A DNA stretch of 64,000 bases from Chamaelirium japonicum (taxonomy: Eukaryota > Streptophyta > Magnoliopsida > Liliales > Melanthiaceae): NCBI GenBank assembly GCA_947650365.1, contig CANTAL010000004.1:1523501-1587500 (forward strand). Reading direction: 5' to 3'. The notes under the pieces are model-generated. The model was not told the DNA's origin, did no database searches, and saw only the letters and a program-made list of their open reading frames with translations. Below are positions 4,821 to 64,000 of this stretch, piece after piece (position 1 is the stretch's first letter; every line of letters starts with the position of its first letter). The position numbers and the translations under genes were made by a program.

Positions 4821-4840
4821 TCCTTTAACTGCTATTTGGA
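4821..4840 (-). promoter_or_regulatory. RT1 in-frame UAG between protease and RT, readthrough-type context
   Basis: Protease and RT share one frame separated by TAG at 4834-4832, followed by CAG TTA. This fits UAG-CAR-YYA, the tobamovirus-type leaky stop context. The same TAG occurs at the same place in RT2, RT3, RT5 and RT6. Confidence 0.65.
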
Positions 4841-5700
4841 AGAGGGACCAGCTTCGTCTCGTGGCCGCTTCGGAGGAGCAATATTGATCTTTCGATCTGT
4901 TTTAGCCGCAGCAGCCTCACAAGACCTCCCAGCTTGCTGATCGCCTCGAATACAGACAATGCCTTCTCCCGTTGCAAATTTGAGGAGTTGGTGGTAAGAA
5001 GAGGAGATGGCATTGATCTGGTGGAGGAATGGTCGCCCGAGAATGGCGTTGTAGCTGGACACTCCTTCGACAATTGCAAACCTGACCGAGACTCGAGTCT
5101 CTCGGCTAAGGTCGAGAGTGAATCTCGATTCGCCCACCGTAATGCTTTGTTCGCCGTTGAATCCAGTGATCACAGTTGGGACGACGTCGAGACTTGAGTA
5201 TCTATGCCCCAGACGTTTGAAACAATCTGAGAACATAATATCGATGGAGCTCCCGGTGTCGATGAGGATTCGATTGACGGTGCTCCCGTCGATGAGGAGT
5301 TTCAAGACCAGGGGGTCTCGATGGGGAGTATGAACTCCTTGAAGATCGGAGTCGTTGAAAACAATGGATGGCCAAGCTAAACCTTCGATAGGCTTCTCGA
5401 TCCCGGTATCCTCCTTGTTCGCAGCAGAACGAACGTGGAAGATGCGTCGAACTTGCCGATCCACTTCCTTCCCAGTCAAGGTTTGATTGTGCAATGTTCC
5501 ATGAATGCCAAAGACGTTGGCATTCACAGAGATTGGTTGCCGGTTGGAGGAGACTTGATGGATCCAACATGCTTCTTTCCCCTTTGCAGAGGTTCGACGT
5601 TGATCTTGTCCACCCTTGACGTAATCTTGAAGGTGGCCTTCCCGCAATAAGTTTTCGAGATGAAATTTCAGCCGATGGCATCGATCGGTGGAGTGGCCGT
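4832..5700 (-). pseudogene. RT1 gag knuckle and aspartic protease
   Basis: Begins with the gag zinc-knuckle-like motif CEFHRSHGHSTDRC (Cys-x2-His-x4-His-x4-Cys), then a linker and a retropepsin domain with the active-site triad DTGSS, the flap-like ITGFNGEQS segment and ILGRPFLHQ. The product would cleave the polyprotein. The frame is open to the UAG at 4832 and ends DEAGPSSK. Confidence 0.8.
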
Positions 5701-5959
5701 GACTTCGGTGGAATTCGCAGTAGACCGTTTTGTCCGCCGTGAATTTAGTGTTTGGCTGAAGCGGATTGGGCCTTCGAAGGAATTCTTCGTGTTGAATACG
5801 GTCGAGGATCTGTTCGACCGGTAAATTCCACTCAGTGAAAGTGGTCTTCGTTGGAGATCGACGTCCGTCATTTTTTGCTCGCTTGTTGGCCGGAGGGGCT
5901 GCTGCCTCAGCATTGTGGGCTTTGGCAGCATACTTGGGAGCTTCTCTTTCAGCTGGTCT

Positions 5960-8208: not shown

Positions 8209-9514
8209 GGGGCCAGAGGGAGGCAACGGTTTTGGCTTGTATGACCAAGCAAATGGGGGCGACTAGGGTTTTGATAAAGCCGAAATCCCTATAAGGGATT
8301 TCCTATTATGAAGGGATTGAGATCCCTTGGATCTTTCCCTTCATAACCTCCTATAGATCTCTCATATGGGGATTTTGGTTAGGGTTTATCCCTTGGCTGG
8401 AATCCTCATGGGGAGGATCTATATGGGGCATCTAATGAGTCCTCTGGTAGAGGATCTAAGAAAGGAACCGCTTAGGTAAACCTAAGCTATATCTCATAAT
8501 CCACATGCCACTAGTTTTTTGGTCACTGTGACGTCAACCACTATCAGTAAACCCTAACGACATTGGGTTAGATACTCTTGGCTGTTAAAGTTGGCTAGGA
8601 ATTGGAATCTTCAGGACCCTAATAGTCTTAACTTCCACTGGTTACATAACCGAGGCCATACCAGTGAATAGTATCTATAATCACTACTAAGACATTGTTG
8701 CACTCTGAAGCTATTAGTAATTATGTGAGTATCCTTTACCCTACTATACTTCACTTGAACCCTTTTAATCTGGTGTCTATAAAACTAACTGAGATCAGTA
8801 TCGACTGTCCCTCTCAGATTAGTTCACCCACTTGAATCCTGACTTCCCAAAGCCTTGTGATCACCACCTTATGTACGTGTACGACTGACCAGTCTTTATG
8901 ATCAACCTTTCATGAGAGTCACTCAATGAGATACCTAGTCCTCCTCAGGGGATATGGATTTCCAATGACTGCTTGCGTTCCCATTGTGCTCAATGCAAAT
9001 TACCCAATCTACCCAGTATTGGTCTATTAATAGACTTAGTTGATTGGCAGGTCAAAGTAGAGAACACCAAACCTATCGTTCATAACACATACTAGAATTA
9101 TGCTTCTAGTCAACTAGTAGTAGAGGTCCTATGGTCTTGGATGACAGTTGATAAGGACAGTTTTCTCTCTTGATTTTGTTCGATGCATTCTAGTTACATC
9201 AACACTACTTGACTTGGTATCTGATACGGATGGTCGAGATAGTCCATCTCTCCAATTGGAGAAGGTCAGTATGTTACAGTCTTATATGTTAGGTGTCTAG
9301 TATATCAATTGACTGTGAACATATACGAGTGTGTATAGTGACTCATATCTCATGTATATAGATCTTATCCATATACCTGAGTCACCTTAAAGACACTATT
9401 GTGGACTAGTGGATTTATGCATCTCATGTACAATGGTGTATGGGTTATAGTGTTGTGATCCTAATTAGTATTGTCATCGCTGAAATTGGCATGTAGGCCA
9501 CACCAATTCCAACA
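8209..9514 (-). repeat. Non-coding LTR-like sequence
   Basis: No ORF. Read on the minus strand from 9514 it starts TGTTGGAATTGGTGTGGCC, a typical plant LTR beginning (often Ty1/copia), and continues for about 1.3 kb without coding sequence until RT1 interrupts it at 8208/8209. I cannot see its other end or a primer binding site, so it could be a truncated solo LTR. Confidence 0.4.
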
Positions 9515-27244: not shown

Positions 27245-27265
27245 ATCTTTGGTTGCTAGCTCGAT
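27245..27265 (-). promoter_or_regulatory. RT2 in-frame UAG between protease and RT
   Basis: TAG at 27258-27256 followed by CAA CCA, fitting UAG-CAR-YYA. Preceding residues GTSSS and following QPKMPPL align with the site in the other copies although the adjoining codons differ. Confidence 0.6.
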
Positions 27266-34991: not shown

Positions 34992-35012
34992 TCCTTTTGT
35001 TGCTAGCTCATA
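34992..35012 (-). promoter_or_regulatory. RT3 in-frame UAG between protease and RT
   Basis: TAG at 35005-35003 followed by CAA CAA. The UAG-CAR part is kept; the third codon departs from YYA at one base. Confidence 0.5.
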
Positions 35013-38430: not shown

Positions 38431-39470
38431 ATGGTCGAGGTTCACGAGATGTCAGGAGAGAAAGGCGAGATCGAGTCTTCTGAACAAAGCGACTCCGACG
38501 ACAAGGGGGGTAGCTCCGACAAGGAAGGCACTGCCTCCTACGATGAGGCAATATTGCACTTGCCGCTCATTGAAGCATTGAACCTTTCAAAAAAAGCTCG
38601 CTTAGCGATGGCCGCGGCCTTGGCAGATCCTGACTATAAGAGAAAGAGGAAGTATGGTTAGAAGAGCAGAATGGTTGCCTCTTGCGATGTAGCAATAACC
38701 TTCTCAGATGAAGATCTGCAACTCGGAGCATGACTGCACAACTGGCCTGTTTGCGTCTCGGGGTACATCAAGGAGAAGCCGGTAAATCGAATCCTGCTAA
38801 ACTAGGGCTCCGCTGTCAATATCATACCCACCCAAACAATGAGACAGCTCGGCATCACCACCGACAGCTCTCACAAAGCCAGCTGGTCATTCAAGGGTTT
38901 AACCAAGGCAGACCATCCACCATTGGGATCATTCATTTGAAGCTTTCCATTAGTCAGCTCGACACGATGGTCCTCTTCCACGTCATTGACTACCAGACAT
39001 CATACCGCCTCTTGCTAGGAAGATCCTAGCTACACAAAAATTGTGTCGTGGTGTCCAACTGGCACCAGTGCCGCAAGTTCTACGAGGAAGGCATGGAGAA
39101 GTGCATCATTGCAGATGACAAGCCATTCAACGGGGCCGAAGCACATCTTACTGACGCCAAATTTTACCAAGCAAAAGATCTTGTTGCAGAAGTCCATCCA
39201 ACTAAAGCTCTTCTAACCCAAAAAGCTGAAGAGGTGAGGTGAGACAAAACACCTCCATCTGCAAATACAGTGCAACCTTCCAACAAGGCGATACTTGAAG
39301 TCAAGGAAGCACCAAGGCCAAGACAAAGGATGCGCATTAACTTCAAGCTGAAATCAACACAACATACTCCATTGCCCGTCCAAGCTATGCCGGTCCTACG
39401 CCTCACTCCTCAATGGCTTCGCAAACACGAACGACAAACTCTTGCTTCAATGAAAAAAACGGCTCCATAA
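38431..39470 (+). pseudogene. RT4 protease region
   Basis: Contains an acidic leader (EIESSEQSDSDDKGG) and a retropepsin region with the familiar order GSAVN(I)IP..MRQLG, VIQGFNQG, LFHVIDYQTSYRLLLGR and WHQCRKFYEEG in shifting frames. The catalytic Asp-Gly is replaced by Asn-stop (AAC TAG at 38800-38805 before GGC TCC), so it is dead. Confidence 0.65.
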
Positions 39471-40530
39471 TTGTCAGAGGCCAACGTCGTCACCTTGAAA
39501 GAAATGGCATTGCCACTACCCGGTCTGATGCCAGCTTCGAATCTGACAAACCCCACTGGCTCCTTTGACTCTAGTCAATTCGAATTCAAGCCAAAAGGGA
39601 GTTGGGGGTCAAACGTCGCCAAGTTGCTATTTAAATCTAGCTACAACAAAGAGATCACCGTGCATATGGGCGCACTTCCTCCAGATGCGACACCAAATGG
39701 GATGACCAAGACTCAAGCTCATCTTTTTCAAAATGGTAAGCAAATTCTCCCGAATCGACGAGGCATTGGCTCCAGTCAAACCCCGATGGTCGTCAAGATT
39801 GCAACGAAGAAGATCATCACCTCCAACTACATTGAGGTGAAGATGGTAGATAAAGCAGCTGAAGGATCATCAGTCTCCGATGCACACTCTACCAACATCG
39901 TCTGTCCCAATATCAAGGCAGTCAAAAGAAGATGGTGATGAGCTCAATATCGGGCCATACCCCAAAAGAGAAAGAAAAGTAGTCAAAGCTGATCAAATTT
40001 AAAGTATACATCCATATTCGAAAGACTCAGGCCAATCAAGCAAGCAAAGAGGAAGTCGGTGTTCAATTGTTTGGGAATGCTAGTTAGGGAAGCCGTTTTG
40101 ATGCCCACCCACCGACCTAAGTCGATGTATTCGATAAGGTTTCCGAATAAAATCTTCCATGATCAATACATGTGACCGTCAATCATATCTCCATTATCAA
40201 AACTAAAAACGGTGATTTTTCTACTTCGGAAGACGAGTTGCAAGATGCCCCACCAGTCCTCGAAGAACGGGGGCAGTCCACCATTGATGATTTGAAAGAA
40301 ATCAACCTGGGCACAGAAAAGGAGCCTCGGCCTATATTCGTCAGCACACTCTTGACTCCCGAAGAAGAAGCTGCATACATCAAGCTACTCCACGAATACA
40401 GAGGCATCTTTGTATGGTCCTACAAGGAGATGTCAGGTCTCGATTCTAAGATCGTAATACACTAGCTCGGTGTCAAACACGGAGCTAGTTCCATCAAGTA
40501 AGGACAAAGACGCTATCGGTCGAGACTGGT
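39471..40530 (+). pseudogene. RT4 linker between protease and RT
   Basis: Open pieces 39471-39938 and 40172-40465. The second includes EINLGTEKEPRPIFVSTLLTPEEE and YRGIFVWSYKEMSGLD, the segment that precedes RT in this group. A stop follows at 40463. Confidence 0.55.
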
Positions 40531-41409
40531 ACCCTAGATAGAAAGCGAAATAAAGAAGCTTATCGAAGCCGGCTTCATCCGAGAGGTCAAGTACCTGACT
40601 TGGATCTCCAGCGTCGTTCCAGTCAAGAAGAAGAAGGTCAAATCAGGGTGTGCGTGGACTTCAGAGACCTGAATAATGCATGCCCAAGGACGATTCTCTG
40701 TTGCCAATCACGAAACTAATGGTGGATGAGACGACAGGCCACGAAGTGCTAACCTTCATGGACGGATCTTCAGGCTACAACCAGATCCGAATGGCACCCA
40801 AAGACAAGGAGCTCATAACATTTCGCATACCAAAGGGGATCTACGTTACAAAGTCATGCCCTTCAGCTTGAAAAATACATGAGCCACCTATCAACAAGCC
40901 ATGCAGACAATCTTTGACGACATTCTTCATCAAAACATGGAGTGCTACGTCGACCACCTCGTTGTAAAGTCCAAGAATAAGTCAACACATCTTAAAGACC
41001 TCGAGCTGAATTTTAAACGACTTCGAAGGTACTAACTTCATATGAACCCACTCAAATGCACATTCGAAGTCTCCTCAGGCAAATTCCTCAGCTTTGTCTT
41101 GCGGCATCGAGGCATTGAGATAGATCAATCCAAAATTGATGCTATCCTCAACATGCCTGCACTAAGGAAGGTGCGAAATCTCAGAGGTCTCTAAGGGCAT
41201 CTGGCGTATATCAGAAGATTTATCGTCAACCTAGCTGGAAAGTATCACCTCTTCAGTCGCCTCATGAATAAAGGAGTGCCATTCAAGTGGGACGAAGCTT
41301 ATCAGGAAACCCTTCAAAGCATCATGGATTATCTACTAAAGTCGCTAGTTTTATTAGCACCAGTTGAAGGAAAGCCACTGATCCTTTACATTAGCGCACA
41401 GGAGCAATC
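40531..41409 (+). pseudogene. RT4 reverse transcriptase
   Basis: Readable motifs: PWISSVVPVKKK-like start, VDFRDLNNACPKDD, TFMDGSSGYNQIRMAPKDKE, then YVDHL at 40946-40960 in place of YVDDL, so one catalytic Asp is His. RGIEIDQSKIDAIL and GHLAYIRRFI follow. Frameshifts near 40860 and stops. Confidence 0.7.
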
Positions 41410-42096
41410 TTGGAGGCACTCTTGGCTCAAGACAATGAGCTAGGCAAGGAGACAACATGCTACTACTTAAGTCGTACCCTTGTTGGCATAGAGCTAAACT
41501 ACTCCCTGATCGAGAAAGTTTGTTTGGCACTCATCTTTGCTACAAAGAAGCTGTGGCACTACATGCTAGCTCACATCATCAAGCTCATTTCGAAGACCGA
41601 CCCTCTTAATTACTTTATGTCAAGACTAGTGCTCTCCAGACATTTAGCCAAATGGGCACTATTACTTCTCAAGTTCGACATCACCTTCGTGCCACAGAAG
41701 GCAGTCAAGGGGCAAGCTCTCGTAGACTTCCTGGCAGAATATCCTCTCCCAGTAGAATGGGAACTGTCAGAAGACATCCCAGACAAGAAAGTATTCTCCA
41801 TCGACATCGCTCCCTCTTGGAAGATGTTCTTCGATGGCGCAACAAGGCAAGACGTGTCGGGGGCAGGAGTTATTTTCGTTACCTCGAATGACAAGATACT
41901 TCCATTCTCATTCCTGTTATCAGAACCATGCTCTAACAATGTTGCAGAATATCAAGCGCTACTCATCAGCCTCGAACTCACCAATAACATGAAGCTTCAA
42001 GGACTCAAGATCTTCAACGACTCCCAACTCGTCATCCAACAAGTCTTGGGGGCATACGAAGTTAACAAAGGAGACCTCGTACCGCTGCACATGTGA
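41410..42096 (+). pseudogene. RT4 first and second RNase H
   Basis: A 228-residue open stretch: the first RNase H (YYLSRTLVGIELNYSLIEKVCLAL, FDITFVPQKAVKGQALVDFLAEYP) followed by the second (FFDGATRQDVSGAGVIF, NNVAEYQALLISLEL, NDSQLVIQQ) with Asp, Glu and Asp in place. It ends in TGA at 42094-42096. Confidence 0.75.
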
Positions 42097-42459
42097 GCTC
42101 TAGAACTCCTCAATGCCCTTGAAGCTGCTTCTATTCAGCATGTCTCTATAAATCTTAACTAACAGGTCGACACGCTTGCAAATTTGGAGGTTACACTCTC
42201 GTTTCCAGAAAAAAGTCAGCTCGTCGTCCCCATTTATAAAAGAATGGTGGTCACCAAGGAAGACATCCCTGCTAGGATTCTAGGTCAAGTCAATGTAGTA
42301 CACATCCTCCTGATCAAAGAGCAAGATTAGAGACAACCCTTTGTGGACTATCTTATCCATGGAAGGCTCCCTGACGATCCAAAGTGCAAGGTTGATGCCC
42401 GCCGGCGATCACTGAAGTTCTTCAACTTCAACAACGAGCTCTACCGTTGAATCTATGAT

Positions 42460-43570
42460 GGTATGCTCTTGAGATATCTTGCAAAATAAGAAGCGAAAGC
42501 AGCACACAAGAAGTCCACGCTGGGATTTGCGGCATGCACTAGTCCGGTCTGAAGCTTCACTTTTGCATCAAGAGGATGGGGTACTACTGGCCCACAATGA
42601 TCAATGATTGCTTGGAATTTATCAAGAAGTGCCAAGCTTGTCAGCTCTATGGCAACTACATCCGGCAGCCACCAGAACCCTTGCATCCGATAATTACATC
42701 ATGGCCCTTTGACTAATGGGGACTTGATATCGTTGGTCCATTGCCCAAGTCGTCTAAGCAGCATCTCTACATTTTGGTGGCAACAAATTACTTCTCCAAA
42801 TGGGCTGAAGCAATTCCATTGTGGGAAGTCATGAGGCACTCCGTCATCAGCTTTATCCAGAACAACATCATTTTTTGATACGGCATCCCTCGCTACATCG
42901 TCATGGACAACGGGAAGCAGTTCAAGAATACTTCTGTCAGCCAGTTTTGTGCCAGGTTCGACATCAAGTAAAAATGCTGGACAATATACAATGCCCCAGG
43001 CAATGGTCTAGCAGAAGCCTTCAACAAGAGTCTCTGCAAGCTCTTGGAGAAAATTGTCTTGAAGTCGAAGAAGGACTGGAACGAACATATGGGCGAAGCA
43101 TTATGGGCCTACCGCACTTCCTTTCGTACTCCAACACAAGCAACTCCGTACTCCCTTATCTACGGGGTAGAAGTCATTCTTCCACTCAAGCTCCAGATCC
43201 CATCACTCAGGATAGCAATCCAAGAAGTCCTCGCTACGACGGCAACACCCAACTTCGCCTGGTAAAACTAGAGGCACTGGATGAGAGACGTCTCGAAGCT
43301 CAGCAATGCCTAGAGTGCTATCAGGCCAGGTTGCCTCACGCCTTCAACAAGAAGATTCATTCTCGATCCTTGCAAATAGGAGAGCTGGTGCTAGCAGTCA
43401 GGCGCCCCATTATTCTCTCACACCGAGGAGGAAAGAAGTTCAACACCAAGTGGGATGGACCGTATGCCATCAAAGAAGTCTACTTCAGTGGTGCGTTCTT
43501 CCTCACGATCCCAGAAGGTCTCACACTCGGCCCTATCATCGGTAAGTACCTCAAAAGGTACTATACCTAA
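42460..43570 (+). pseudogene. RT4 integrase
   Basis: Zinc finger HAGICGMH..CQAC; core WGLDIVGPLPKSSKQHLYILV, VMDNGKQFKN and GLAEAFNKSL supply Asp, Asp and Glu; then EALWAYRTSFRTPTQATPYSL and an end KYLKRYYT at 43570. Interrupted by stops and a frameshift near 43263. Confidence 0.7.
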
Positions 43571-44031: not shown

Positions 44032-44806
44032 TGTGGGTGCAAATTTTGGCGAGAAGTCTGCAAACAGCGGGACCCACCGGCCCTGCCTGGTGGGCTCCCG
44101 AAAGACTACCATGGGACCCACCGGCCCTGCTTGGTGGGCCCACGAAGACTACCACGGGACCCACCGGCCCTGCCTGGTGGGCCCACGAAGACTACCACGG
44201 GACCTACCGGCCCTACCTGGTGGGCCCACGAGGACTACCACGGGACCCACTGGCCCTGCCTGGTGGGCCCACGGAGACTCCCACGGGACCTACCGGCCCT
44301 GCTTGTGGAATCCCCATAAGACAGCAGTAGGACCCACCAGCCCTGTCTGGAGGAACTTCCAGAAGCAGCCAGAAACCGCCATTTATCCCCAGCATTTCTC
44401 TATAAATAGCAGACCCTTCGAATGTAAATGGGCCCGATTTCTAGTTCTGAGATCTGATTTTCAAAAACCAGAGCTCTTGAATTTTCTAACTTCCCATCCT
44501 TCACCTCTCCCTGATCTTCTTCTTCTTACCTTCGAAGAGATCGGAGAGGCATCAGTGACACTCGGCCTGTCGAGGTCACTTCGAGAAAAGGGTTAGTGAA
44601 TTCGGGTTGCTCCCTACAACACGGAGACGTAGGCTTCGGCTGAACTCCGAGATCACTTCTCGTGCCTATTACCTGATTGCATCTCTCTCTGGTTGTGTAT
44701 TGAGAACGGCAACTCCAATCAATAGATCGAACAACGATCTTCGACTCAAACTTCAATTGACTGGTGCGGTGAAGTCTTCGGGTTGGCACGAAGATTTTCC
44801 CCCACA
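44032..44806 (+). repeat. RT5 5' LTR (775 bp)
   Basis: TGTGGGTGCAAATTTTGG ... CCCCCACA. About six 43-bp minisatellite units at 44070-44310, TATAAATAG at 44401-44409, invariant hairpin at 44622-44649. ORFs through the minisatellite are artefacts. Confidence 0.9.
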
Positions 44807-46440: not shown

Positions 46441-47407
46441 ATCGAGCAGATCCTCGACCGCATCCAACACGAAGATTTCCTTCGAAGGCCCAATCCTCTT
46501 CAGCCTGACACTAAAGTCACGGCTGACAAAACAGTCTATTGCGACTTCCATCGAAGTCACGGCCATTCCACCGATCGGTGCTATCGGCTGAGATTTCATT
46601 TCGAAGACCTACTGCGTGAAGGCCACCTTCAAGAGTTCGTCAAGGGCGGACAAGATCAGTGCCGAACCTCTGCAAAGGGGAAAGAAGCTTGCTGGGTCCA
46701 TCAAATCTCCTCCAATCGATCACCTATCACCGTGAAGGCCAATGTCTTTGGCATTCACAGAACATTGCACAATCAAGTGCTGACCGGGAAGGAAGTAGAT
46801 CGGCAAGTTCGACGCATCTTCCACGTTCGTTCTGCGGTGAACAAGGAGGATACCTGGATCGAGAAGCCTATCAAGGGTTTGGCTTGGCCCTCCATCGTTT
46901 TCAATGATACTGATCTGCAAGGAGTTTACACTCCACATCGAGACTCCCTGGTCTTGAAGCTCCTCATCGACGGAAGCACCGTCAATCGAATCCTCATCGA
47001 CACCGGAAGTTCCATCGACATTATGTTCTCAGACTACTTCAAATGTTTGGGATATAAATACTCGAGCCTTGACGTCATCCCAATGGTGATCACAGGCTTC
47101 AACGGGCGAATCAAGATTCACTCTCGATCTCAGCCGAGAAACTCGAGTCTCGGTGAGATTTGCTATCGTCGAAGGAACATCCAGCTACAACGCCATTTTC
47201 GGGCGACCATTTCTACATCAAATTAATGCTATATCCTCCTCCTACCATCAACTCCTCAAATTCGCAACGGAAGAAGGCATTGTTTGTATACGAGGAGATC
47301 AACAAGCCGGGCGATCCTGCGAAGCAGCTGCGGCAAAGACAGATCGCAAGATAAACATTGCTCCTCCAAAGCGACCGCGAGATGAAGCCAGCCCTTCTTC
47401 CAAATAG
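46408..47407 (+). pseudogene. RT5 gag knuckle and aspartic protease
   Basis: 46408-47226 carries the knuckle CDFHRSHGHSTDRC, the linker and the retropepsin DTGSS. A deletion near 47105 shifts the frame, and the domain resumes at 47153-47407 (FAIVEGTSSYNAIFGRPFLHQ) ending DEASPSSK before TAG 47405-47407. Confidence 0.8.
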
Positions 47408-47415
47408 CAATCAAA
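47395..47415 (+). promoter_or_regulatory. RT5 in-frame UAG between protease and RT
   Basis: TAG 47405-47407 followed by CAA TCA, fitting UAG-CAR-YYA. The frame after it (QSKEIPLTEPPPIEWE) leads into RT, although this copy has further stops near 47556 and 47714. Confidence 0.65.
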
Positions 47416-51509: not shown

Positions 51510-52773
51510 CTATCCTTCGGATCCACCACGAGCCTTGCTCGCTGCAGATGCCTTAGAAGATTGCACAGCACTGACATGAACCCTGAGTGCCTCCACTGCC
51601 TTCTCTGCTGTCGCCCTGAAGCTCTCGCATTCTGCACGTGTGTGCTCTAGATCCTTCTTGAAGGCCTCATTCTTGGCAGCAAGGGCGGCTTCTTTGGCAG
51701 CAAGAGCAGCATCCCTGGAAGCAAGTTGAGTCTTCAGCTCCTTTATTTCAGTTGCGCGCTCAATGGATAGAGTCTCGATCTTATAGAAACGGTTCTTCAA
51801 CTCTTCGAGCTCGTGTCCTCGAGCAACGTAACCCTCTTGCCAGCCTTTGCTTTCGAGCTTCTCCTTGCGAAGAGCCTCGATCTTGGCCTTCAGGGACTCC
51901 TTCTTGGAAGTCAGAATTTCCCTCAACTTCTCCTTCTCTTCGTTGGCAGCTTCATGTTCAGCCATCAAGCGAGTAACCTCAGCCGAAGCTCCCCGCTCTC
52001 CGGCCTTCTTGAAGAGCTTGCTAGCGAACTTCAGGACTGCTGAGTTCTGCAAGTAAACAAAAAGAGTTAGAAATATTTCTGAAGATACAATTCAAGAACC
52101 GAGTCAAGCTGATGCATTTACCACTACTTCAAGCCTGTCGTAGGCTTCTTCCAGAGTAGCATCCGGAAGGTTGCAGAGCTTCCGGATCACACTCGTTGGG
52201 TGGTTGATATCAACCTCACCCAAGTTTCTCAACTTCTGAGCCGTGCCAGCAGGAGTATCTGCAATCAAGACAGAAGTTCAAAGAGTTAGAATATTTTCAA
52301 ACTTCAAAGACAATACAATCGAGAGAAGAAGTTAGTAAAGTTATCAGTGTGAACCTGTGGCATCAACTCGAGGGGCTTTACCCTTTCCCCGTTTGGAGCT
52401 CTTACCCCTGGGGGTCGACCTCTCCTTGAGGGGGGTTGTCTCTGGCTGAGGTTGGGGAGTCCTATCCTCGATGCGGCTCCCTCCCTCCATGTGTGCGGGG
52501 GAAGGAACACCTCGAAGAGGAGTGATCTCCCCTTCCTCTTGCTGCTCACCAGGCTGTTCGAGCCAGGCCATTATTGCTGCCATCTCCTCATCTAGACGAG
52601 CGGCAGGAGTGGGCTGTTCAACCTCAGCCCCACCACTCGTCGAAGTGCCTTTGAGCTGAGGGGCACTTGGAGGTATCTGGTTGAGGGGTGTGGGGTTGCT
52701 TGCAACCCCATCACTCCCCGAAAATCTGATCCTTATGCGCATGGGGCGCTTCAACTCTTCAAAATGGTATGTG
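51510..52773 (-). pseudogene. RT5 antisense gene (aORF), exons 1 (partial), 2 and 3
   Basis: Exon 1 remnant about 52773-52355 (proline/serine-rich end, GKAPRVDATG), exon 2 52258-52122 (137 bp, frame intact), exon 3 52046-51510 (coiled coil). Borders are GT/AG and match RT6 exactly, which supports a real spliced gene. Exon 3 stops early after GGSEG (TAG), losing the AQSVAKP tail, and the conserved domain of exon 1 is lost through the insertion at 52774. Confidence 0.72.
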
Positions 52774-53660: not shown

Positions 53661-54582
53661 TGTGGGGAAAAATCTTCGTGCCGACCCGAAGATTTTCGCA
53701 GCACCAGTCAATTGGAGTTGAAGTTGACGTCGAAGATCGTTGGTCGATCTGTTGATTGAAGTTGAAGCCTTTTGATATGTCAATAGAAAGAGATATGCAA
53801 TCAGAGAGTAGACACGAGAGGTGATCTCGGAGTTCAGCCGAAGCCTACGTCTCCGTGCTATAGGGAGCAACCCGAATTCACCAACACTTATGCTGGAGTG
53901 ATCTCGACAGGCCGAGTATCACTGTAAACACTGATCTCTTCGAGAGAAAAAGAAGATCAAAGAGAGGTGGAAGATGGGAAGCTGGAAATCCCAGAGCTCT
54001 GGTTTTAGAACTGAGAATTCGATCCATTTACATTCGAAGGCTCTGCTATTTATAGGCTTCTCTGGGAGGAATTCCGGGGTGAATGGCGGTTCCTGCTGTC
54101 ATATCTGGGGATCCTCCAGGTAAAGCTGGTGGGCTCCGCTGCCGTCTTCTGGGGGATTCTACAGGCTCGTGGGCCTACTAGGCAGGGCCGGTGGGTCCCA
54201 TGGTAGTCTTCGTGGGCCCACCAGGCAGGGCCGGTGGGTCCCGTGGTAGTCTTCATGGGCCCACCAGGCAGGGCCGGTGGGTCCCATGGTAGTCCTCGTG
54301 GGCCCACCAGGCAGGGCCGGTGGGTCCCATGGTAGTCTTCGTGGGCCCACCAGGCAGGGCTGGTGGGTCCCATGGTAGTCTTCGTGGGCCCACCAGGCAG
54401 GGCCGGTGGGTCCCATGGTAGTCTTCGTGGGCCCACCAGGCAGGGCCGGTGGGTCCCATGGTAGTCTTCGTGGGCCCACCAGGCAGGGCCGGTGGGTCCC
54501 ATGGTAGTCTTCGTGGGCCCACCAGGCAGGGCCGGTGGGTCCCGTGGTAGTTGGTAAACTTCTGCCAAAATTTGCACCCACA
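53661..54582 (-). repeat. RT6 3' LTR (922 bp)
   Basis: Same family as the RT1 and RT5 LTRs but longer, because it has nine copies of the 43-bp unit (54185-54555). TATA box 54055-54046; invariant hairpin 53828-53855. The 145- and 175-codon ORFs repeating GPTGPAWWAHEDYHG are the minisatellite translated in shifting frames. Confidence 0.9.
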
Positions 54583-54594
54583 GTTACCCCCTCC
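54583..54594 (-). other. RT6 polypurine tract
   Basis: Minus strand GGAGGGGGTAAC immediately before the LTR start TGTGGG; the expected plus-strand DNA primer site. Confidence 0.7.
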
Positions 54595-54689: not shown

Positions 54690-56330
54690 CACAAAAAAGG
54701 ACTGACCGATCAATTTTGATTGATTGATCGGTCAATTTTGACGGATCGGTCAAATTTTGACCGATCGGTCAAAATTCAACCGGTCAAGAATCGGGTGATC
54801 GATCAAAAAACAGAGTTTTTTGACCGATCCAGTAGGAAATTTGACTGATCGGTTGAAATTTGACCGATCGGTTAATTTTTGACCGATCGGTCATATTTGA
54901 CCGATCGGTCAAATTTTGATCGATCGGTCAAAATTCAACTGGTCAAGAATAGGGTGATCGGTTAAAAAACATGGTTTTTTGACCGATCTAGTAGGAATTT
55001 TGACCGATCGAATGATTTTTGCCGATCGGACAAGTTTGTCCGATCGGTAAAAAATTATCCGGTCAAGGTTCACGTGATCGGCAAAAAACCTTGGTTTTTT
55101 GCCAGATCCAGTAGAAATTTGACCGATCGAATGATTTTTGCCGATCGGACAAGTTTGTCCGATCGGTAAAAAATTATCCGGTCAAGGTTCCAGTGATCGG
55201 CAAAAAACCTTGGTTTTTTGCCAGATCCAGTAGAAATTTGACCGATCGAATGATTTTTGCTGATCGGACAAGTTTGTCCGATCGGTAAAAAATTATCCGG
55301 TCAAGGTTCGAGTGATCGGCAAAAAACCTTGGTTTTTTGCCAGATCCAGTAGAAATTTGACCGATCGAATGATTTTTGCCGATCGGACAAGTTTGTCCGA
55401 TCGGTAAAAAATTATCCAGTCAAGGTTCAAGTGATCGGCAAAAAACCTTGGTTTTTTGCCAGATCCAGTAGAAATTTGACCGATCGAATGATTTTTGCCG
55501 ATCGGACAAGTTTGTCCGATCGGTAAAAAATTATCCGGTCAAGGTTCAAGTGATCGGCAAAAAACCTTGGTTTTTTGCTAGATCCAGTAGAAATTTGACC
55601 GATCGAATGATTTTTGCCGATCGGACAAGTTTGTCCGATCGGTAAAAAATTATCCGGTCAAGGTTCAAGTGATCGGCAAAAAACCTTGGTTTTTTGCCAG
55701 ATCCAGTAGAAATTTGACCGATCGAATGATTTTTGCCGATCGGACAAGTTTGTCCGATCGGTAAAAAATTATCCGGTCAAGGTTCATGTGATCGGCAAAA
55801 AACCTTGGTTTTTTGCCAGATCCAGTAGAAATTTGACCGATCGAATGATTTTTGCCGATCGGACAAGTTTGTCCGATCGATAAAAAATTATCCGGTCAAG
55901 GTTCAAGTGATCGGCAAAAAACCTTGGTTTTTTGCCAGATCCAGTAGAAATTTGACCGATCGAATGATTTTTGCCGATCGGACAAGTTTGTCCGATCGGT
56001 AAAAAATTATCCGGTCAAGGTTCATGTGATCGGCAAAAAACCTTAGTTTTTTGCCAGATCCAGTAGAAATTTGACCGATCGAATGATTTTTGCCGATCGG
56101 ACAAGTTTGTCCGATCGGTAAAAAATTATCCGGTCAAGGTTCAAGTGATCGGCAAAAAACCTTGGTTTTTTGCCAGATCCAGTAGAAATTTGACCGATCG
56201 AATGATTTTTGCCGATCGGACAAGTTTGTCCGATCGGTAAAAAATTATCCGGTCAAGATACGAGTGATCGGCGAAAAACCTTGGTTTTTTGCCAGATCCA
56301 GTAGAAATTTGACAGATTAGTTGAAAGTTT
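54690..56330. repeat. RT6 tandem array: divergent units, then 11 near-identical 119-bp units
   Basis: 54690-55010 has two diverged units with GACCGATCGGTC palindromes and a hairpin with arms GATCGGTCAAAAAAC and complement. From 55010, a 119-bp unit recurs at exactly 119-bp spacing (ACCTTGG at 55088, 55207 and so on to 56278) with very few differences. Each unit has two strong hairpins: arm CCGATCGGACAA with its exact complement after a 2-base gap, and arm GGCAAAAAACC with its exact complement after a 2-base gap. The array lies between the 3' LTR and the start of the antisense gene. Confidence 0.9.
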
Positions 56331-56760
56331 TGAACCTGCCCTTAGAGAGGGTTTCGTAACTGTTCCGTTCTTCGATCTTCTGGCAGAGTTTTGATCATTG
56401 ATGGAGTTTGATCTTTCCTGTGTTGAGTCTTGGGTTGGTTTGAATGAGGCTTTTGACCGGCGATCCGGTTTACTCAGACCGGTGACTCGCTTGGACCGTT
56501 TGGTTCACGTGGACCGGTGGTCCGACGTTTCGTCTGGTCTGACGGTTCGCCTGATTTTGCGCCTGCTACGGATGGATGCCACGTGTTCCTACAAAAACAC
56601 GCAATTTGATATGGTGAAGACACGTGTCTTCTCGATTTGCGTACCTGTTTTACCCTGGGTATATGAGTTTCACTGGCTGTCATTTTTGCCTCACGCTTCA
56701 AATTTTTTTTCGAAGTCCAGACTTTTTGCTCCCGATTTCTGCTTTTGCTCGATCGATCAG

Positions 56761-59518
56761 ATGGCGTCTTCTGGAAGCTCGAAGAAGTCAGGCGGGGTCC
56801 CTTCGAAGAGGAAAGGGAAAGAGATTGTTGAGGTTCCATCCTCTCCGAAGGGCGGCCGCGGCAAGGGCAAGGCTGTGCTTGCCGAACTGGGGCAGCTGGG
56901 AAAAAGACACCAGGGAGTAGGGTTTGCTTCAGCGCCATCGAGGCCAGAGCATATCCCTAAAGTACAGTTCGTTCCGGGCCCGCTTATGTCTCTGTCAGAG
57001 GAAACTGAGTATGTATACAATACTGGTGGCGAGTTCACAGATTCAAAGAGGAAGAAGTGGCAGACATTGCTCTCTTTCTTCACCGAAGGAAGGGTGCAAC
57101 CTTCGCTCCCCAGCATTCAGACTGCATTCGGCATTGACAAGAAGACCGTCTTCACCAGCTTTGCTAGCAATGAGAAGGTCATGGGAACCATCGTAACCAT
57201 CGGCCAACTCAATTGCGGTCTGCGTCTACCGTTGCCACCCTTTGCGGCAAGATTACTGAACACTTCTAGCCTTTGCCCGGGGCAGGTCACTGGAAATGCC
57301 TGGCGAATTATCTACGCATTCTGCCGCGTGGAGTCGGATTTTCAAGAGGACTTGAAGGCGTGCTACTCCAGCATCCCGGAAGGTGAAGACGCTCGGATCG
57401 AGCTTGGATACTTCTTCTTCCACTATCGATGGGCTTACAGAAAGGACAGCCCATTCTACAATTTGACCGGTGTGTCTCCACTGCGCCCGCTAACTGATAC
57501 AGTCCCTTCGGACAAGTTGTATACAGATTGGCTTATCTCTGTTACCGGCGCATGGACACCCATCTCAGTGCCCGATACCCCCCGAGGTGAAGTGCATGAC
57601 GCAGTGAAGATGTACAGCGAGGGAGGCATCTTTGCCTGGACCTCCGAGAGGGCTGGAGCAATCGATAACTTATTTCTGGAGTTGACCTGTGGAACCAGGT
57701 CGTGGAAGCAGTTCTCCAACTGCCCCGTAAGATATGGCAAGGCCAATCTCCTCCACCGATCAAAGGATAGATATGAGGACAATGAAGTCCTATACTTTGA
57801 CTATGAGGAGGACCCCCATTCGGGTAAGATTATTCGGAAGGTTCGGGCCGAGAAGAAAATCTATACTGCAAGGCGCCGATTGCCTACCGTGGATGAGAAG
57901 CTGGTGATCCAAAGAGGCCCAGTGAAGAAGAGAAGAAAGACCCTCATCAAGCAAAAGGAAGATGAAGGCCAAGGGAAGAAAATTGAAGATGAAGAAGAAA
58001 AGGAGAAAAAGGGGAGCGTCGAGGAAGATGAAGAGACTGAAAATGTCAGCCACGACAACAGTGGTAATGACGAGGACGAGGAAGGGAGCGGCGAGGATGA
58101 TCTGTCTTCCACCCCTTCTGGTGGAGATGGTGAGAATGGGGGTGGTGAGGAAGAAATTCCTCCCACCCCCACTGGTGGTGCAACAGGGGAAGACTCGATT
58201 CCTATTCCCATTGACGAGGTTAAAGCCCGTCAAATGGAGGAAATTCTCGACATAGAAGGTGATGGCCCAAAGGCGGTTCCCACCTACAAGTTTGATGAAT
58301 TGAAGAAGCCGCTGCGCTTCAAAATTAAGTTGTCGAGGAGTGGTGGGGTTGGAAGCAACCCCACACCCCTCGATCAAATTCCACCTGAAGTACCCCGCCT
58401 CGAAGGAGCAACCACGAGCGGGGGTATCGAAGTTGAACAACCCCCGCCCCCCTCTCGGTCTTTGGCTGAGGAGGTGGCTGCTATGGTGGCGGGACTCGTC
58501 CAGCCAGGCGGGCCTCAGGAAGAAAGAGTCTCACCTCCCCGGGATGCTCCCTCCCCTATCCATTTGGAGAGGGAAAGTCGCGTGGGCGATGGAGCTACTC
58601 AACCTCAGCCAACGCCGACTCCTACTCAGGAGAAAACGACCCCTCAGGGTGGTTCCGATCGCCGAAAGGGTAAGGAGCCAAGGGTTGAAGTCTCAGGTAA
58701 TTGTACTAACTTGCCTTGATTTTCTTGCCTCTGAAGATTGGAAATAATCTAACACTTTGACCTTTCGTGTTGATTGCAGGTGCGCCTGTTGGCTCGACCC
58801 CGAAGATGAAGAGTTTGGGTGATGTTGACATCAACCACCCCACCTCCGTGATCCGGAAACTCTGCAATCTTCCAGGGGCTACTCTGGATGAAGCTTTCGA
58901 CAGGCTCGAACTGGTGGTAAGTGCATCTGCTCGACCGATTATCTGAATTGCATCTTCAGAATAATTCTAACTCTTTTGTTCTTTTTGCAGAATTCAGTAG
59001 TTTTGAATGTCGCGACCAAGCTTTCCATGAAGGCGGGAGCAAAAGAAGCTTCAGCTGAAGTCTCCCGCTTAGCTGCCGCACTGGAGGTCGTAAGCGAGGA
59101 GAGGGATAAGCTGAGGGAGGCTCTATCCTCAAAGAAGGAGGCATTGAAGGCCAAGACCGAGGCCCTTCGCAAGGAAAAGTTGGAGAGCAAGGGCTGGCAG
59201 AATGGATACGAGGCCCGGGGTCACGAGCTTAAAGATCTGAAGAAACGATTCTTCAGGATCGAGAACTTGGGCTTCGATCGTGCTGCTCGAATAAAGGAGC
59301 TGGAGGCTCAACTTGCTGCTTCAGCAGAGACTCATAAGAAGGAGCTGGAGCATATGCGGAGTGAGTGCCAGAGCTACAGGGAAACAGCTGAAAAGGCGGC
59401 AGAAGCACTCAGGGCCCATGTTGCCAGTGTCCGATCCTCCAAGGCATCAGCGGCGAGCAAAGCTCGTGCTGGATCTGAGGGGGAGAAGTCGCGTGCGCAG
59501 AGTGTGGCCAAGCCTTGA
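56761..59518 (+). CDS. RT6 antisense three-exon gene: gypsy-type transposon domain plus coiled coil
   Basis: Exons 56761-58696, 58780-58916 and 58991-59518 join in frame to about 866 residues; introns of 83 and 74 bp have GT/AG ends. The ATG at 56761 (MASSGSSKKSGG) is chosen because RTx has the homologous start; the frame is also open upstream to 56398. Residues 1-50 are basic. Residues about 110-195 (IQTAFGIDKKTVF..CGLRLPLPPFAARLL..LCPGQVTGNAWRIIYAF) resemble the plant 'putative gypsy type transposon' domain (PF04195) from memory. KKRRKTLIK near 389 is a possible nuclear signal. 398-475 is acidic, 465-645 proline/serine-rich, and exon 3 is a long coiled coil ending AQSVAKP. Additional antisense ORFs are known in Tat elements; function unknown. 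No break seen in this copy. Confidence 0.75.
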
Positions 59519-60467: not shown

Positions 60468-63400
60468 TTATTCGGAGAAGTCTAGATCATTGATCCGAAG
60501 TTCTTCATTGATTCCTTCTTCAACTGCTTTGGTCTTCAAAGTACTTGATATATTTTCTGTTGGGAGTACTGCTTCCGATCCATATGTTAGACGAAAGGGT
60601 GAGAACCCTGTTGATCTTCTCGGAGTTGTGCGATACCCCCAAAGAACTTCAGGTAGGACTTGCTCCCACAATCCTTTCTTGTCGTTGAGTTTCTTCTTGA
60701 GTATACCAAGTATGGCTCTATTTGAGGCTTCAGCTTGGCCATTGCATTGAGGATATATTGGAGTTGAATAGAATAGCTTGATACCGTTGTTGAGACAGAA
60801 CTCTCGAAACTTGTCGGAGTCAAACTGAGCTCCATTGTCAGCAACAAGAATTTGAGGTGTACCAAACCTTGAGAAGATGTTGCGCCGAATGAATTTGATC
60901 ACTTCGTCGTCAGTCTCTCGGAAGAGGGGCACAGCTTCAACCCATTTGGTGAAATAATCCGTGGCCAGTAGTAGATACTTCTTCTTGCTTGGAGTTGGAG
61001 GGAAAGGGCCCAAGAAATCTAACCCCCATTGATGGAATGGCCAGGGACTTGATAGTTGATGAAGCTCATCTGCAGGGAGATGAATAGCTCGAGCGTGTCT
61101 TTGGCATGGCTCACATCTTTGAACAACTTGTTGAGCATCCCTTGCCATTGTTGGCCAGTAGTACCCTTGTAGTTTCGTCTTGGCTTCAAGAGATCTTTCT
61201 CCCGAATGATTCCCACAAGTTCCAGAGTGGATATCAATTAGGATTGCCAGTGCTTGCTCGGGACCAAGGCTTTTGAGCAACATCCCGTTGTGAGATTTGA
61301 AATATAGATCTTCTCCTTGTAGAATGTAGCATGAGAGCTTCCTTTGAACTCTTTGGGCTTGATTTGGATCTTCCAGCATTTTGCCACGCTTGAAGAAATC
61401 GAAAATTGATCGTCTCCAGTCTTCAAGCTGATCTCCACCCCTAGATTCTTTTGTAGTAGTAAGGATCTGTTGATCGGGGGTGGTCTTGGACACTTCTTGA
61501 TAATCGATCTGTATTTGCCTTCCTCCGAGTGAGTCTCCAAGAACTGAGGCAGCATTGGCTAAGGCATCTGCTTCTTGGTTCTCTGCTCTGGGGATTTGAA
61601 TGAATTCAGCGGCAATAAAACGTTGTTGAAGATGTCGTACTAAGGCCAAGTAGAGTTGCATTCTTTCTTCGCAAGCTGTGTACTCTCTATTGATTTGCCT
61701 TATGATCAATTGGGAGTCACTGTAGACGATAATTCGATCTACCCCCAGGGATTTCGCCATCTCGAGTCCAGAAATGAGTGCTTCGTATTCGGCTTCGTTG
61801 TTAGTGGCAGTGAATCCGAGGAGAGTGGCTTTCTGGAGATGATCAAGTTCGGGGGACACCAAGACTATCCCAGTTCCCGAACCGATCGAACTTGAAGCTC
61901 CATCAGTATAAAGTTTCCATGGAGGAGTTGCAGCAGTAGCTTCGAGATTTGGATCAATTTTTGTTGCAAGGTTGATCGGAGTATTGTCCTCATCTTCCAA
62001 GCGCATATCGACATCTTCTTCCCAAGTAATGGGGTCTTCAACTGGAAAATCAGCTAGAAAATCAGCAATAGCTTGACCTTTGATAGAAGTGCGAGATTCG
62101 AACTGAATCCCCAGGGAACTCATTTCGATCACCCATTTGGTCATTCGACCAGCTCGACCAGCTTTGTCAATGATATCTTTGAGCGAATGTTCTGAAATGA
62201 CAGTGATCTGGTGAGAGACGAAGTATGGTTGAAGGCGACGCGATGCAGTGAGTAAGGCTAGGATGACTTTCTCAGTTTTTGAATAGCGAGTTTCAGCCGG
62301 GAGAAGAGTGTGACTGATATAATAGACTGGATGCTCGAAGCCTTCTCTTCTACTGACTAAGACTGCACTGATTGCTTGATTGGTTACGACGAGATAGAGC
62401 CATAAGTCTTCTTGTGGAAGTGGAGCCGTCAAGATAGGAGCTTGCACCAGATATTTCTTGATGCTTTGAAATGCTTCTTCACAAATTGGACTCCACCCTG
62501 AAGTATCCGCCTTTCGTAGTTTGTCGAAGAGAGGTTTACATTTGTCAGAAGACTTTGAGATGAACCGATTGAGGGCAGCAAGTCTTCCAGTGAGGCGCTG
62601 CACTTCCTTTCGATTGGTAGGTGATGGCATGTCGAGGATAGCTCGAATTTGATCAGGATTGGCTTCAATACCCCTCCTGGTCACAAGATGACCCAGGAAT
62701 TTGCCAGATTGAACTCCGAAAGCGCACTTGGCTGGATTGAGCTTCATACGATATTTTCGAAGAACTTGAAAGGTTTCTGCCAGATCAGAAAGATGCTTGC
62801 TCCGAATGGAACTCTTGGTGAGGAGATCATCGACATAGACTTTGACGTTGCGGCCGATCTGATCTTCGAACATTTTTGTGACTAACCGTTGATAGGTGGA
62901 ACCAGCATTTTTGAGGCCGAATGGCATTACGTTGTAGCAGTAGAGACCTCGGCTAGTCACGAAGCAAGTCTTCTCTTGATCGTTTGTATGAAGTGGAATT
63001 TGATTGTATCCAGAATACCCATCCATGAAAGACAATAGCTCGTGGCCAGCAGTGGCATCGACGAGTCTATCGATTCTTGGCATGGGGAATGGGTCTTTGG
63101 GGCAAGCCTTGTTGAGGTTGGTGAAGTCGATGCAGACTCTGACTTTCCCATTCTTCTTTGGAACAGCAACTATGTTAGAGATCCAGGTAGGATACTCTAC
63201 TTCTCGGATGAAGCCTGCTGCGAGTAGCTTGGTGATTTCTTCTTGAACAGCAACTTGCAGCTCTGGCCGGATGGTGCGTGGCTTTTGCTTGACAGGTTTC
63301 ACTTCTTCTTTGATTGCAAGTCGGTGACAAGCATCATCCGGATTGATACCAGGCATGTCTTCGAAGACGTCGATATTGGACTGGAGGAAGGATACCATGT

Positions 63401-63548
63401 CTTGCGCTTCTGCGTCGCTAAGACCGGTACCAATAAATGTTTGTCGAGGGAGATCTCCACTGCCAATGTTGATAGGGATGATTTCTTCAATTGAAGGTGA
63501 TGTTTCCCATTCGATTGGTGGAGGTTCGGTCAGCGGAATCTCCTTTGA
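60468..63548 (-). CDS. RT6 pol: RT, RNase H, second RNase H, integrase
   Basis: Continuous frame from the UAG (63554-63552) to TAA 60468. Numbering from the first Met (63398): RT 40-240 with YVDD at 188-191; first RNase H about 335-450; second, archaeal-type RNase H 494-625 with Asp499, Glu537, Asp561 and Asp611; zinc finger His724, His731, Cys762, Cys765; integrase Asp794, Asp854, Glu890 (35 residues between the last two). All catalytic residues are present. It lacks its own start and would be made as part of a Gag-Pol fusion if the UAG is read through. The early TAA removes the last about 95 residues of integrase. Confidence 0.88.
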   Translation of the reverse strand, partial: SKEIPLTEPPPIEWETSPSIEEIIPINIGSGDLPRQTFIGTGLSDAEAQDMVSFLQSNIDVFEDMPGINPDDACHRLAIKEEVKPVKQKPRTIRPELQVAVQEEITKLLAAGFIREVEYPTWISNIVAVPKKNGKVRVCIDFTNLNKACPKDPFPMPRIDRLVDATAGHELLSFMDGYSGYNQIPLHTNDQEKTCFVTSRGLYCYNVMPFGLKNAGSTYQRLVTKMFEDQIGRNVKVYVDDLLTKSSIRSKHLSDLAETFQVLRKYRMKLNPAKCAFGVQSGKFLGHLVTRRGIEANPDQIRAILDMPSPTNRKEVQRLTGRLAALNRFISKSSDKCKPLFDKLRKADTSGWSPICEEAFQSIKKYLVQAPILTAPLPQEDLWLYLVVTNQAISAVLVSRREGFEHPVYYISHTLLPAETRYSKTEKVILALLTASRRLQPYFVSHQITVISEHSLKDIIDKAGRAGRMTKWVIEMSSLGIQFESRTSIKGQAIADFLADFPVEDPITWEEDVDMRLEDEDNTPINLATKIDPNLEATAATPPWKLYTDGASSSIGSGTGIVLVSPELDHLQKATLLGFTATNNEAEYEALISGLEMAKSLGVDRIIVYSDSQLIIRQINREYTACEERMQLYLALVRHLQQRFIAAEFIQIPRAENQEADALANAASVLGDSLGGRQIQIDYQEVSKTTPDQQILTTTKESRGGDQLEDWRRSIFDFFKRGKMLEDPNQAQRVQRKLSCYILQGEDLYFKSHNGMLLKSLGPEQALAILIDIHSGTCGNHSGERSLEAKTKLQGYYWPTMARDAQQVVQRCEPCQRHARAIHLPADELHQLSSPWPFHQWGLDFLGPFPPTPSKKKYLLLATDYFTKWVEAVPLFRETDDEVIKFIRRNIFSRFGTPQILVADNGAQFDSDKFREFCLNNGIKLFYSTPIYPQCNGQAEASNRAILGILKKKLNDKKGLWEQVLPEVLWGYRTTPRRSTGFSPFRLTYGSEAVLPTENISSTLKTKAVEEGINEELRINDLDFSE

Positions 63549-63562
63549 TTGCTATTTGGAAG
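63542..63562 (-). promoter_or_regulatory. RT6 in-frame UAG between protease and RT
   Basis: TAG 63554-63552 followed by CAA TCA, fitting UAG-CAR-YYA. In this copy it is the only stop between protease and the end of the RT-integrase frame at 60470, which makes it the clearest example of the five. Confidence 0.7.
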
Positions 63563-64000
63563 AGGGACCAGCTTCATCTCGTGGCCGCTTTGGAGGAGCA
63601 ATGTTGATTTTTCGATCTGTTTTAGCCGCAGCAGCCTCACAAGACCTTCCAGCTTGTTGATCACCTCGAATGCAGACGATGCCTTCTCCTGTTGCAAACT
63701 TGAGAAGTTGGTGATAAGAAGAGGAGATGGCATTGATCTGGTGGAGGAATGGCCGCCCAAGAATGGCATTGTAGCTAGATATTCCTTCGACGATTGCAAA
63801 CCTCACCGAGACTCGAGTCCCTCGGCTGAGGTCGATGGTAAATCTGGACTCGCCCACCGTGATGCTTTGTTCGCCGTTGAAGCCGGTGATCACGGTCGGG
63901 ACGACGTCGAGGCTTTGATACTTATGTCCTAGACGTTTGAAGCAGTCTGAGAACATAATGTCGATGGAGCTTCCGGTGTCAATGAGGATCCGGTTGACAG
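63552..64000 (-). CDS. RT6 aspartic protease, continues beyond window
   Basis: Visible from the window edge through MFSDCFKRLGHKYQSLD, ITGFNGEQSITVGESRF, FAIVEGISSYNAILGRPFLHQ to DEAGPSSK and the UAG. The catalytic DTG lies at about the window edge (complement of GGTGTCAATG near 63976). The frame is intact as far as seen. Confidence 0.85.
   Translation of the reverse strand, partial: VNRILIDTGSSIDIMFSDCFKRLGHKYQSLDVVPTVITGFNGEQSITVGESRFTIDLSRGTRVSVRFAIVEGISSYNAILGRPFLHQINAISSSYHQLLKFATGEGIVCIRGDQQAGRSCEAAAAKTDRKINIAPPKRPRDEAGPSSK

Follow-up and report, generated by a model that had tools for sequence, protein, structure and literature searches.

A 64,000-nucleotide stretch of the Chamaelirium japonicum genome (assembly GCA_947650365.1, contig CANTAL010000004.1, positions 1,523,501 to 1,587,500, hereafter the window) contains five copies of a Retand-like retrotransposon family, here RT1, RT2, RT3, RT5 and RT6, in which an in-frame TAG separates the protease from the reverse transcriptase (RT). 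Based on comparative sequence analysis, this TAG is very probably a functional, selectively kept recoding site, with Gag-protease as the main product and Gag-Pol obtained through UAG readthrough of the tobamovirus type. According to this reading, ribosomes would translate the Gag-protease open reading frame (ORF, about 822 codons) and mostly terminate at the UAG, while the CARYYA context that follows it (R, purine; Y, pyrimidine) would let a minority of them insert an amino acid and carry translation in frame through RT, two successive RNase H domains and integrase; readthrough would thereby set the ratio of Gag to Gag-Pol. In the copies analyzed, the codon is conserved, both regions share one frame, the sequence is under coding constraint before as well as after the stop, and substitutions follow a pattern that agrees with RNA-level constraint on the hexamer.

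The stop codon in the five window copies

The TAG was found at each of the five positions given in the initial annotation, in frame with the aligned protease and RT codons: 4832..4834 (RT1), 27256..27258 (RT2), 35003..35005 (RT3) and 63552..63554 (RT6) on the minus strand, and 47405..47407 (RT5) on the plus strand. Directly 3' of it lie the hexamers CAGTTA in RT1 (4826..4831, minus), CAACCA in RT2 (27250..27255, minus), CAATCA in RT5 (47408..47413, plus) and CAATCA in RT6 (63546..63551, minus), all of which fit CARYYA; the exception is RT3, whose CAACAA (34997..35002, minus) falls outside the consensus and is a minor variant of its subfamily. The adjoining codons vary among copies (SSK, SSS and SMS before the stop; QLK, QPK, QQK and QSK after it). 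In RT1, the C-terminal part of the Gag-protease ORF (4835..5959, minus) reaches the TAG.

The initial annotation had described a single TAG dividing the two regions, with any other stops private to individual copies. The first part holds for RT6, where no other stop occurs within 140 codons on either side, and fails for RT1, RT2, RT3 and RT5, which carry 1, 5, 7 and 3 additional in-frame stops, respectively. The second part was not borne out: a stop occupies codon +57 (numbered from the TAG) in RT1, RT2 and RT3, and codons +50 and +103 are stops in both RT3 and RT5. In RT6, followed beyond the window end, the TAG is indeed the only stop before the RT-integrase region, with 600 codons upstream and 563 downstream otherwise open. 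The bare 9-mer TAGCARYYA showed only mild enrichment over the window (7 occurrences vs. 2.97 ± 1.77 expected), and the argument therefore rests on its homologous position.

Conservation of the site across the genome

The family, which is very abundant, was sampled across the assembly of this single species (1,518,659,071 bases, 1.52 Gb). The RT6 junction query returned 3663 candidates at first look. Scores were computed for the best 40, which all showed 99-100% identity, and 30 loci were fetched. With the remaining subfamilies included, 105 rows were obtained, and 101 distinct copies from five subfamilies were retained after dropping the window's own RT6 and RT2 (L001 and L031) and two rows (L002 and L032) from contig C285, a repeat of the window region. 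This contig carries all five junctions at 98-100% identity, in reversed order, between 113 and 185 kb, and for this reason looks like an alternative haplotype or a duplicate of the window region.

Conservation was assessed, as the initial annotation had proposed, for the TAG and the six bases after it against the flanking codons. TAG was present in 100 of the 101 distinct copies (L054 has TAC) and CARYYA in 97 (the misfits being RT3, L051, L065 and L074), the complete type I signal thus occurring in 96, whereas no rival stop site exceeded 12/101. In L074, an RT3-type copy, a small insertion of extra bases at the TAG and hexamer disrupts the latter. Sequences of the RT6 type had TAG CAATCA AAG in all 30 fetched near-identical loci, contrary to the outcome that the initial annotation had named as refuting, young copies mostly with a sense codon, and in 10 of these 30 copies the TAG was the sole stop along 1163 codons (600 upstream and 563 downstream). 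In the remaining subfamilies it was found in 29/30 RT2-type loci (RT2 included, with identity down to about 86%), 20/20 RT3-type relatives, 10/10 RT1-type relatives and 10/10 RT5-type relatives.

The common hexamers of the subfamilies vary only inside CARYYA. CAATCA characterizes the RT5 and RT6 subfamilies, and CAATTA was found in 10/10 fetched RT1 relatives, the lone CAGTTA being that of RT1 itself. The RT2 subfamily has CAACCA, plus two CAACTA and one CAACCC, while the 21 RT3-type rows comprise CAACCA (16), CAACAA (2), CAATCA (1), CAGCCA (1) and CATGCA (1), with 18/21 fitting the consensus and the CAACAA of RT3 being a minority form. An exact-flank pattern matched 1444 sites in the genome with the stop codon left open, and 1437 with TAG fixed; among the matches listed, read by eye, the codon was always TAG and the second codon TCA or TTA, bar one TTT.

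As a control for decay, stops were counted at 163 aligned codons around the junction in the same 101 copies. A stop was present in at least one copy at 33 of these codons, the runner-up sites including codons -67 (12/101), +50 (11/101) and +57 (10/101), and each of the nine runner-up stop codons listed was absent from the RT6-type copies (0/29). Sense codons at +50 and +57 include CAA, CAG and CGA, one C-to-T step away from a stop, and the recurrent stops at these two positions look like the product of repeated C-to-T decay. Since decay stops peak near 12% of copies even at hot spots, the near-fixation at the junction is not that of ordinary decay.

These data also bear on whether the TAG could be an inactivating mutation that was frozen in place and propagated by copies mobilized in trans, its resemblance to the viral context being due to chance. 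Many copies of the family are dead, stops do recur at decay-prone codons, and a shared stop could have been inherited from one master element. However, the TAG is common to five subfamilies that stand 23-76% apart at synonymous sites while their pol remains constrained, it persists in young copies devoid of any other stop, and the subfamily hexamers differ within CARYYA only, while decay stops remain at or below 12/101 copies. We regard this as the least probable of the alternatives considered.

Substitution pattern and coding constraint around the stop

Between subfamilies, divergence at the three positions of the TAG was 0.00, 0.00 and 0.01, while the codon before it diverged by 0.01, 0.62 and 0.62. 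At codon +2 the values were 0.59, 0.46 and 0.01: the amino acid shifts among Ser, Leu and Pro with the third base kept as A, the codon being TCA, TTA, CCA or CTA among the copies fitting CARYYA. This is the opposite of the usual coding change and agrees with what an RNA-level constraint on the CARYYA hexamer would predict, a suggestive correspondence.

The region after the stop behaves as protein-coding sequence. The ratio of nonsynonymous to synonymous divergence (dN/dS) over codons +1 to +50 was 0.21, 0.23, 0.21, 0.45, 0.11 and 0.26 in six subfamily pairs, whose synonymous sites upstream of the stop have diverged by 23-76%. In 24 copy pairs, dN/dS was 0.04 for the protease, 0.19 for codons +1 to +51, 0.09 for +52 to +129, 0.08 for RT and 0.09 for +291 to +460; the stretch from -59 to -1 was saturated in these pairs and gives no ratio. 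Given the protein-level constraint on codons +1 to +50, the stretch after the TAG is most simply read as translated in frame. The proposal in the initial annotation that Gag-protease is the main product and Pol is made by suppression thus appears well supported by the codon +2 pattern, the constraint after the stop and the contrast with decay stops.

The same constraint bears on a second alternative, namely that Pol has a translation start of its own at the +52 AUG, by internal initiation or from a shorter transcript, the UAG merely ending Gag-protease. Downstream of the TAG, an in-frame ATG indeed first occurs at codon 52 in 28 of the 29 RT6-type copies (at codon 70 in the other), and among the 23 of 29 RT2-type copies listed it first occurs at codon 52 in at least 14 and at codon 4 in one. 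Moreover, domain content cannot argue against such a start, because the RT match begins only at residue 130 of the Pol ORF, and in the Candida element Tca2 the isolated junction supported pol expression that for the most part did not depend on translation of gag, according to the account in PMC2194720. Yet codons +1 to +50, which lack an in-frame ATG in 29/29 RT6-type copies, would then be under protein-level constraint for no evident reason, and initiation at +52 accounts neither for pol being kept in frame with gag nor for the upkeep of CARYYA. We give this possibility scarcely more credence than the frozen mutation.

A third alternative, splicing, would remove the stop from part of the transcripts in the manner of Ogre elements, making readthrough unnecessary. 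It was addressed with a sequence scan covering 600 bases on each side of the stop, using a rough splice-site matrix built from general knowledge. In-frame GT...AG pairs spanning the stop are present, and one of them scores best in 12 of the 29 RT6-type copies; nevertheless, this pair does not lead among RT2-type copies, where a different one scores highest in 7/29. The top intron scores of the two copies compared with codon shuffles were equalled or beaten by 74/100 and 36/100 of them, and the TAG itself scores poorly as a splice acceptor (2.00 and 1.44 bits). Overall, the scan with this matrix revealed no conserved in-frame intron in the 600 bases on either side, and the idea of an intron that removes the stop, raised in the initial annotation as a possible refutation, found no sequence support within that distance. 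Besides, sequence on both sides of the stop evolves as protein, and the two ORFs abut at one codon, whereas those of Ogre lie 274 bp apart on average. Splicing is the likeliest among alternatives that we all regard as very improbable.

Several observations weigh against the readthrough interpretation. Copies were sampled by similarity to queries that include the junction site itself. The reversed substitution pattern is not exclusive to codon +2: of 155 codons, three passed the cut-offs, the others being -90 and +35, and the statistic alone is for that reason only suggestive. The RT2-RT3 pair showed the highest dN/dS after the stop (0.45, and 0.53 over codons +3 to +30); copies of this pair are decayed, with many other stops. 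Finally, a putative RNA stem downstream of the site was unexceptional in RT6-type copies when compared with a synonymous-codon null (ranks 17, 23 and 42 of 101 windows).

That stem, which begins 8 nt 3' of the stop, was seen in single folds of 11/13 copies; conserved 3' RNA structure at about this distance is a mark of type II/III readthrough signals. Against dinucleotide shuffles it reached z values of -3.64, -4.23, -2.51 and -2.41, at an offset (+9) that was added by hand to the 25-base grid after inspection of the folds and is thus biased in the stem's favour. Under the synonymous-codon null, RT2-type stems ranked 1, 9, 4, 54 and 68, and few compensatory changes were found. Given the RT6-type ranks and the scarcity of compensatory change, a 3' stem-loop is not claimed as a second signal.

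Comparison with known recoding systems

For plant viruses, UAG-CARYYA has been described as the consensus at which readthrough is efficient (PMC3542737, PMC2754532), and it constitutes the type I signal found in tobamoviruses, benyviruses and pomoviruses (PMC3542737, PMC5382211). The tobamovirus replicase resembles the present case both in this signal and in having the polymerase as the downstream product, and the CAA UYA reported for tobacco mosaic virus (TMV) and beet necrotic yellow vein virus (PMC2754532) is matched by the RT1-, RT5- and RT6-type sites, RT1 itself having CAG. Tobamoviruses are nonetheless RNA viruses, whereas here the stop splits Gag-protease from Pol in a retrotransposon, so that the likeness is one of signal and not of descent. 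In the TMV context the tRNA involved was found to be that for tyrosine (PMC2754532). For the Chamaelirium family, the occurrence of readthrough, its rate, the tRNA that decodes the UAG and any importance for transposition are matters of inference.

In Moloney murine leukaemia virus (MuLV) the protease lies after the stop, whereas in the Chamaelirium family it lies before it. Gag-Pol of this virus likewise depends on an in-frame UAG that is read through (PMC5009743, PMC2194720), but a purine-rich spacer and a pseudoknot are needed there (PMC2194720), while the context here is of type I.

Among plant elements, the closest comparison by description is RIRE2 from rice, a Ty3/gypsy element of the Tat clade classed as Retand (PMC6317226). 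Readthrough candidates among rice gypsy-type retrotransposons are mentioned in PMC2754532, citing the RIRE2 paper (Ohtsubo et al. 1999); the likeness considered here is one of classification and description, and the present analysis contributes evidence from individual copies of five subfamilies. The soybean element SIRE1 is counted as one of the retroelements whose reading frames are separated by an in-frame stop (PMC2194720), and its stop-codon suppression is the subject, by title, of Havecker and Voytas 2003, cited in the same source. SIRE1 is thus a plant long terminal repeat (LTR) retrotransposon with reported suppression, but it belongs to Ty1/copia and, by that title, the suppression serves an envelope-like protein and not Pol. 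This citation sits uneasily with the statement in PMC2754532 that all experimentally verified plant readthrough was viral to that date. Ogre elements share with the present family the second RNase H between RNase H (RH) and integrase (INT), and a first ORF that ends after the protease (PMC6317226); they differ in having a long intron as spacer, where the present family has one codon and showed no candidate for a conserved intron.

According to PMC11963269, 37 Retand clusters (59%) had a single gag-pol ORF and the others had two; clusters with one ORF made up 83% in eudicots and 29% in what are presumably the monocots (the text reads Liliaceae). In view of these two-ORF clusters and of the rice RIRE2 candidates (PMC2754532), the view in the initial annotation that a junction stop is unexpected for this lineage was too strong. 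In the literature passages covered, a scope that leaves out the original RIRE2, Gao 2003 and SIRE1 papers, no account was met of a UAG-CARYYA site that separates protease from RT and is documented copy by copy. The site would accordingly appear to be a well-documented further case of a known phenomenon, and no priority is claimed. A protein search with part of Gag-protease returned a single distant protein (P0001, 27% identity), uninformative regarding the stop; no relative was found in a scan of viral contigs, and a plasmid scan gave three records with distant RT matches.

To our knowledge, the setting of the Gag to Pol ratio in plant Ty3/gypsy elements has been little tested, and this family provides over 1,400 natural instances of the same site, with a short and clear candidate signal, within one genome. 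If confirmed, the site would place TMV-type readthrough in the mobile DNA of the host, with a bearing on the tolerance of plant release factors and tRNAs, and annotators should be warned not to take a conserved TAG for decay. More tentatively, and with doubts that outweigh our confidence, TMV-type UAG readthrough could be the standard Gag/Gag-Pol control across a whole branch of monocot Retand elements. Should this be so, it would explain the two-ORF reports for most monocot Retand clusters and imply thousands of type I readthrough sites in plant genomes, far beyond known genes or viruses, alongside which the host translation apparatus would have evolved.

Element layout and other features of the region

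Gag and aspartic protease domains precede the TAG, and RT, RNase H, a second RNase H and integrase follow it. In RT6 the aspartic protease domain occupies 63747..64000 (minus) and runs about 16 bases beyond the window end; its PF13650 match was obtained in the near-identical copy L007, at residues 447-536 within the 600-residue stretch that ends at the TAG. The Pol ORF of RT6 (60468..63551, minus; 1027 codons) extends from directly after the TAG to the TAA at 60468-60470, with matches to RVT_1 (residues 130-288), RT_RNaseH (380-478), RVT_3/RNase_H (547-668) and integrase (768-933). This TAA closes the frame near the end of the integrase region, while the ORF of RT1 runs further. Upstream of three RT6-type copies, the Gag-protease ORF measured 822 codons from ATG to TAG in two, and a 761-codon open frame was found in the third.

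A second RNase H (aRH) between RH and INT marks the Ogre/Retand part of the Tat clade (PMC6317226). Such a second domain is present here, placed by its RVT_3/RNase_H match and presumed to be of the aRH type, and the element is therefore assigned to that part of the clade by its domain order. The intron-length gap between GAG-PROT and RT that characterizes Ogre was not found at this junction, where the ORFs abut at one TAG. Retand elements are grouped by RT phylogeny with Cinful-1, Tat4-1, RIRE2 and Grande, and are described as carrying an antisense ORF with TRP28/Transposase_28 between pol and the 3' LTR (PMC11963269). Antisense to RT6 there is a 774-codon ORF (56395-58719, plus) with a weak Transposase_28 match (E 0.00086; 19.9 bits, vs. 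a curated cut-off of 26.2), and a 119-base tandem array (54876-56484), most of its registers 98% alike, lies downstream of RT6 pol. The repeats and, weakly, the match below the cut-off agree with the Retand description, and the family is called Retand-like here, its name not being proven by them.

A further element, RT4 (38850-43570, plus), is a badly broken Tat-like copy with many stops and about 1.1 kb between the protease and RT homologies; it was considered as a within-genome control and set aside as too decayed. Elsewhere in the window, 43-base tandem repeats at 7835-8214 and 54035-54586, with a related stretch at 44102-44305, yield long repetitive ORFs. Coiled-coil-like ORFs were recognized by eye at 179-784 (plus), 51510-52091 (minus) and 58892-59518 (plus), and tandem repeats at a 155-base spacing between 18696 and 19907 give rise to minus-strand ORFs.
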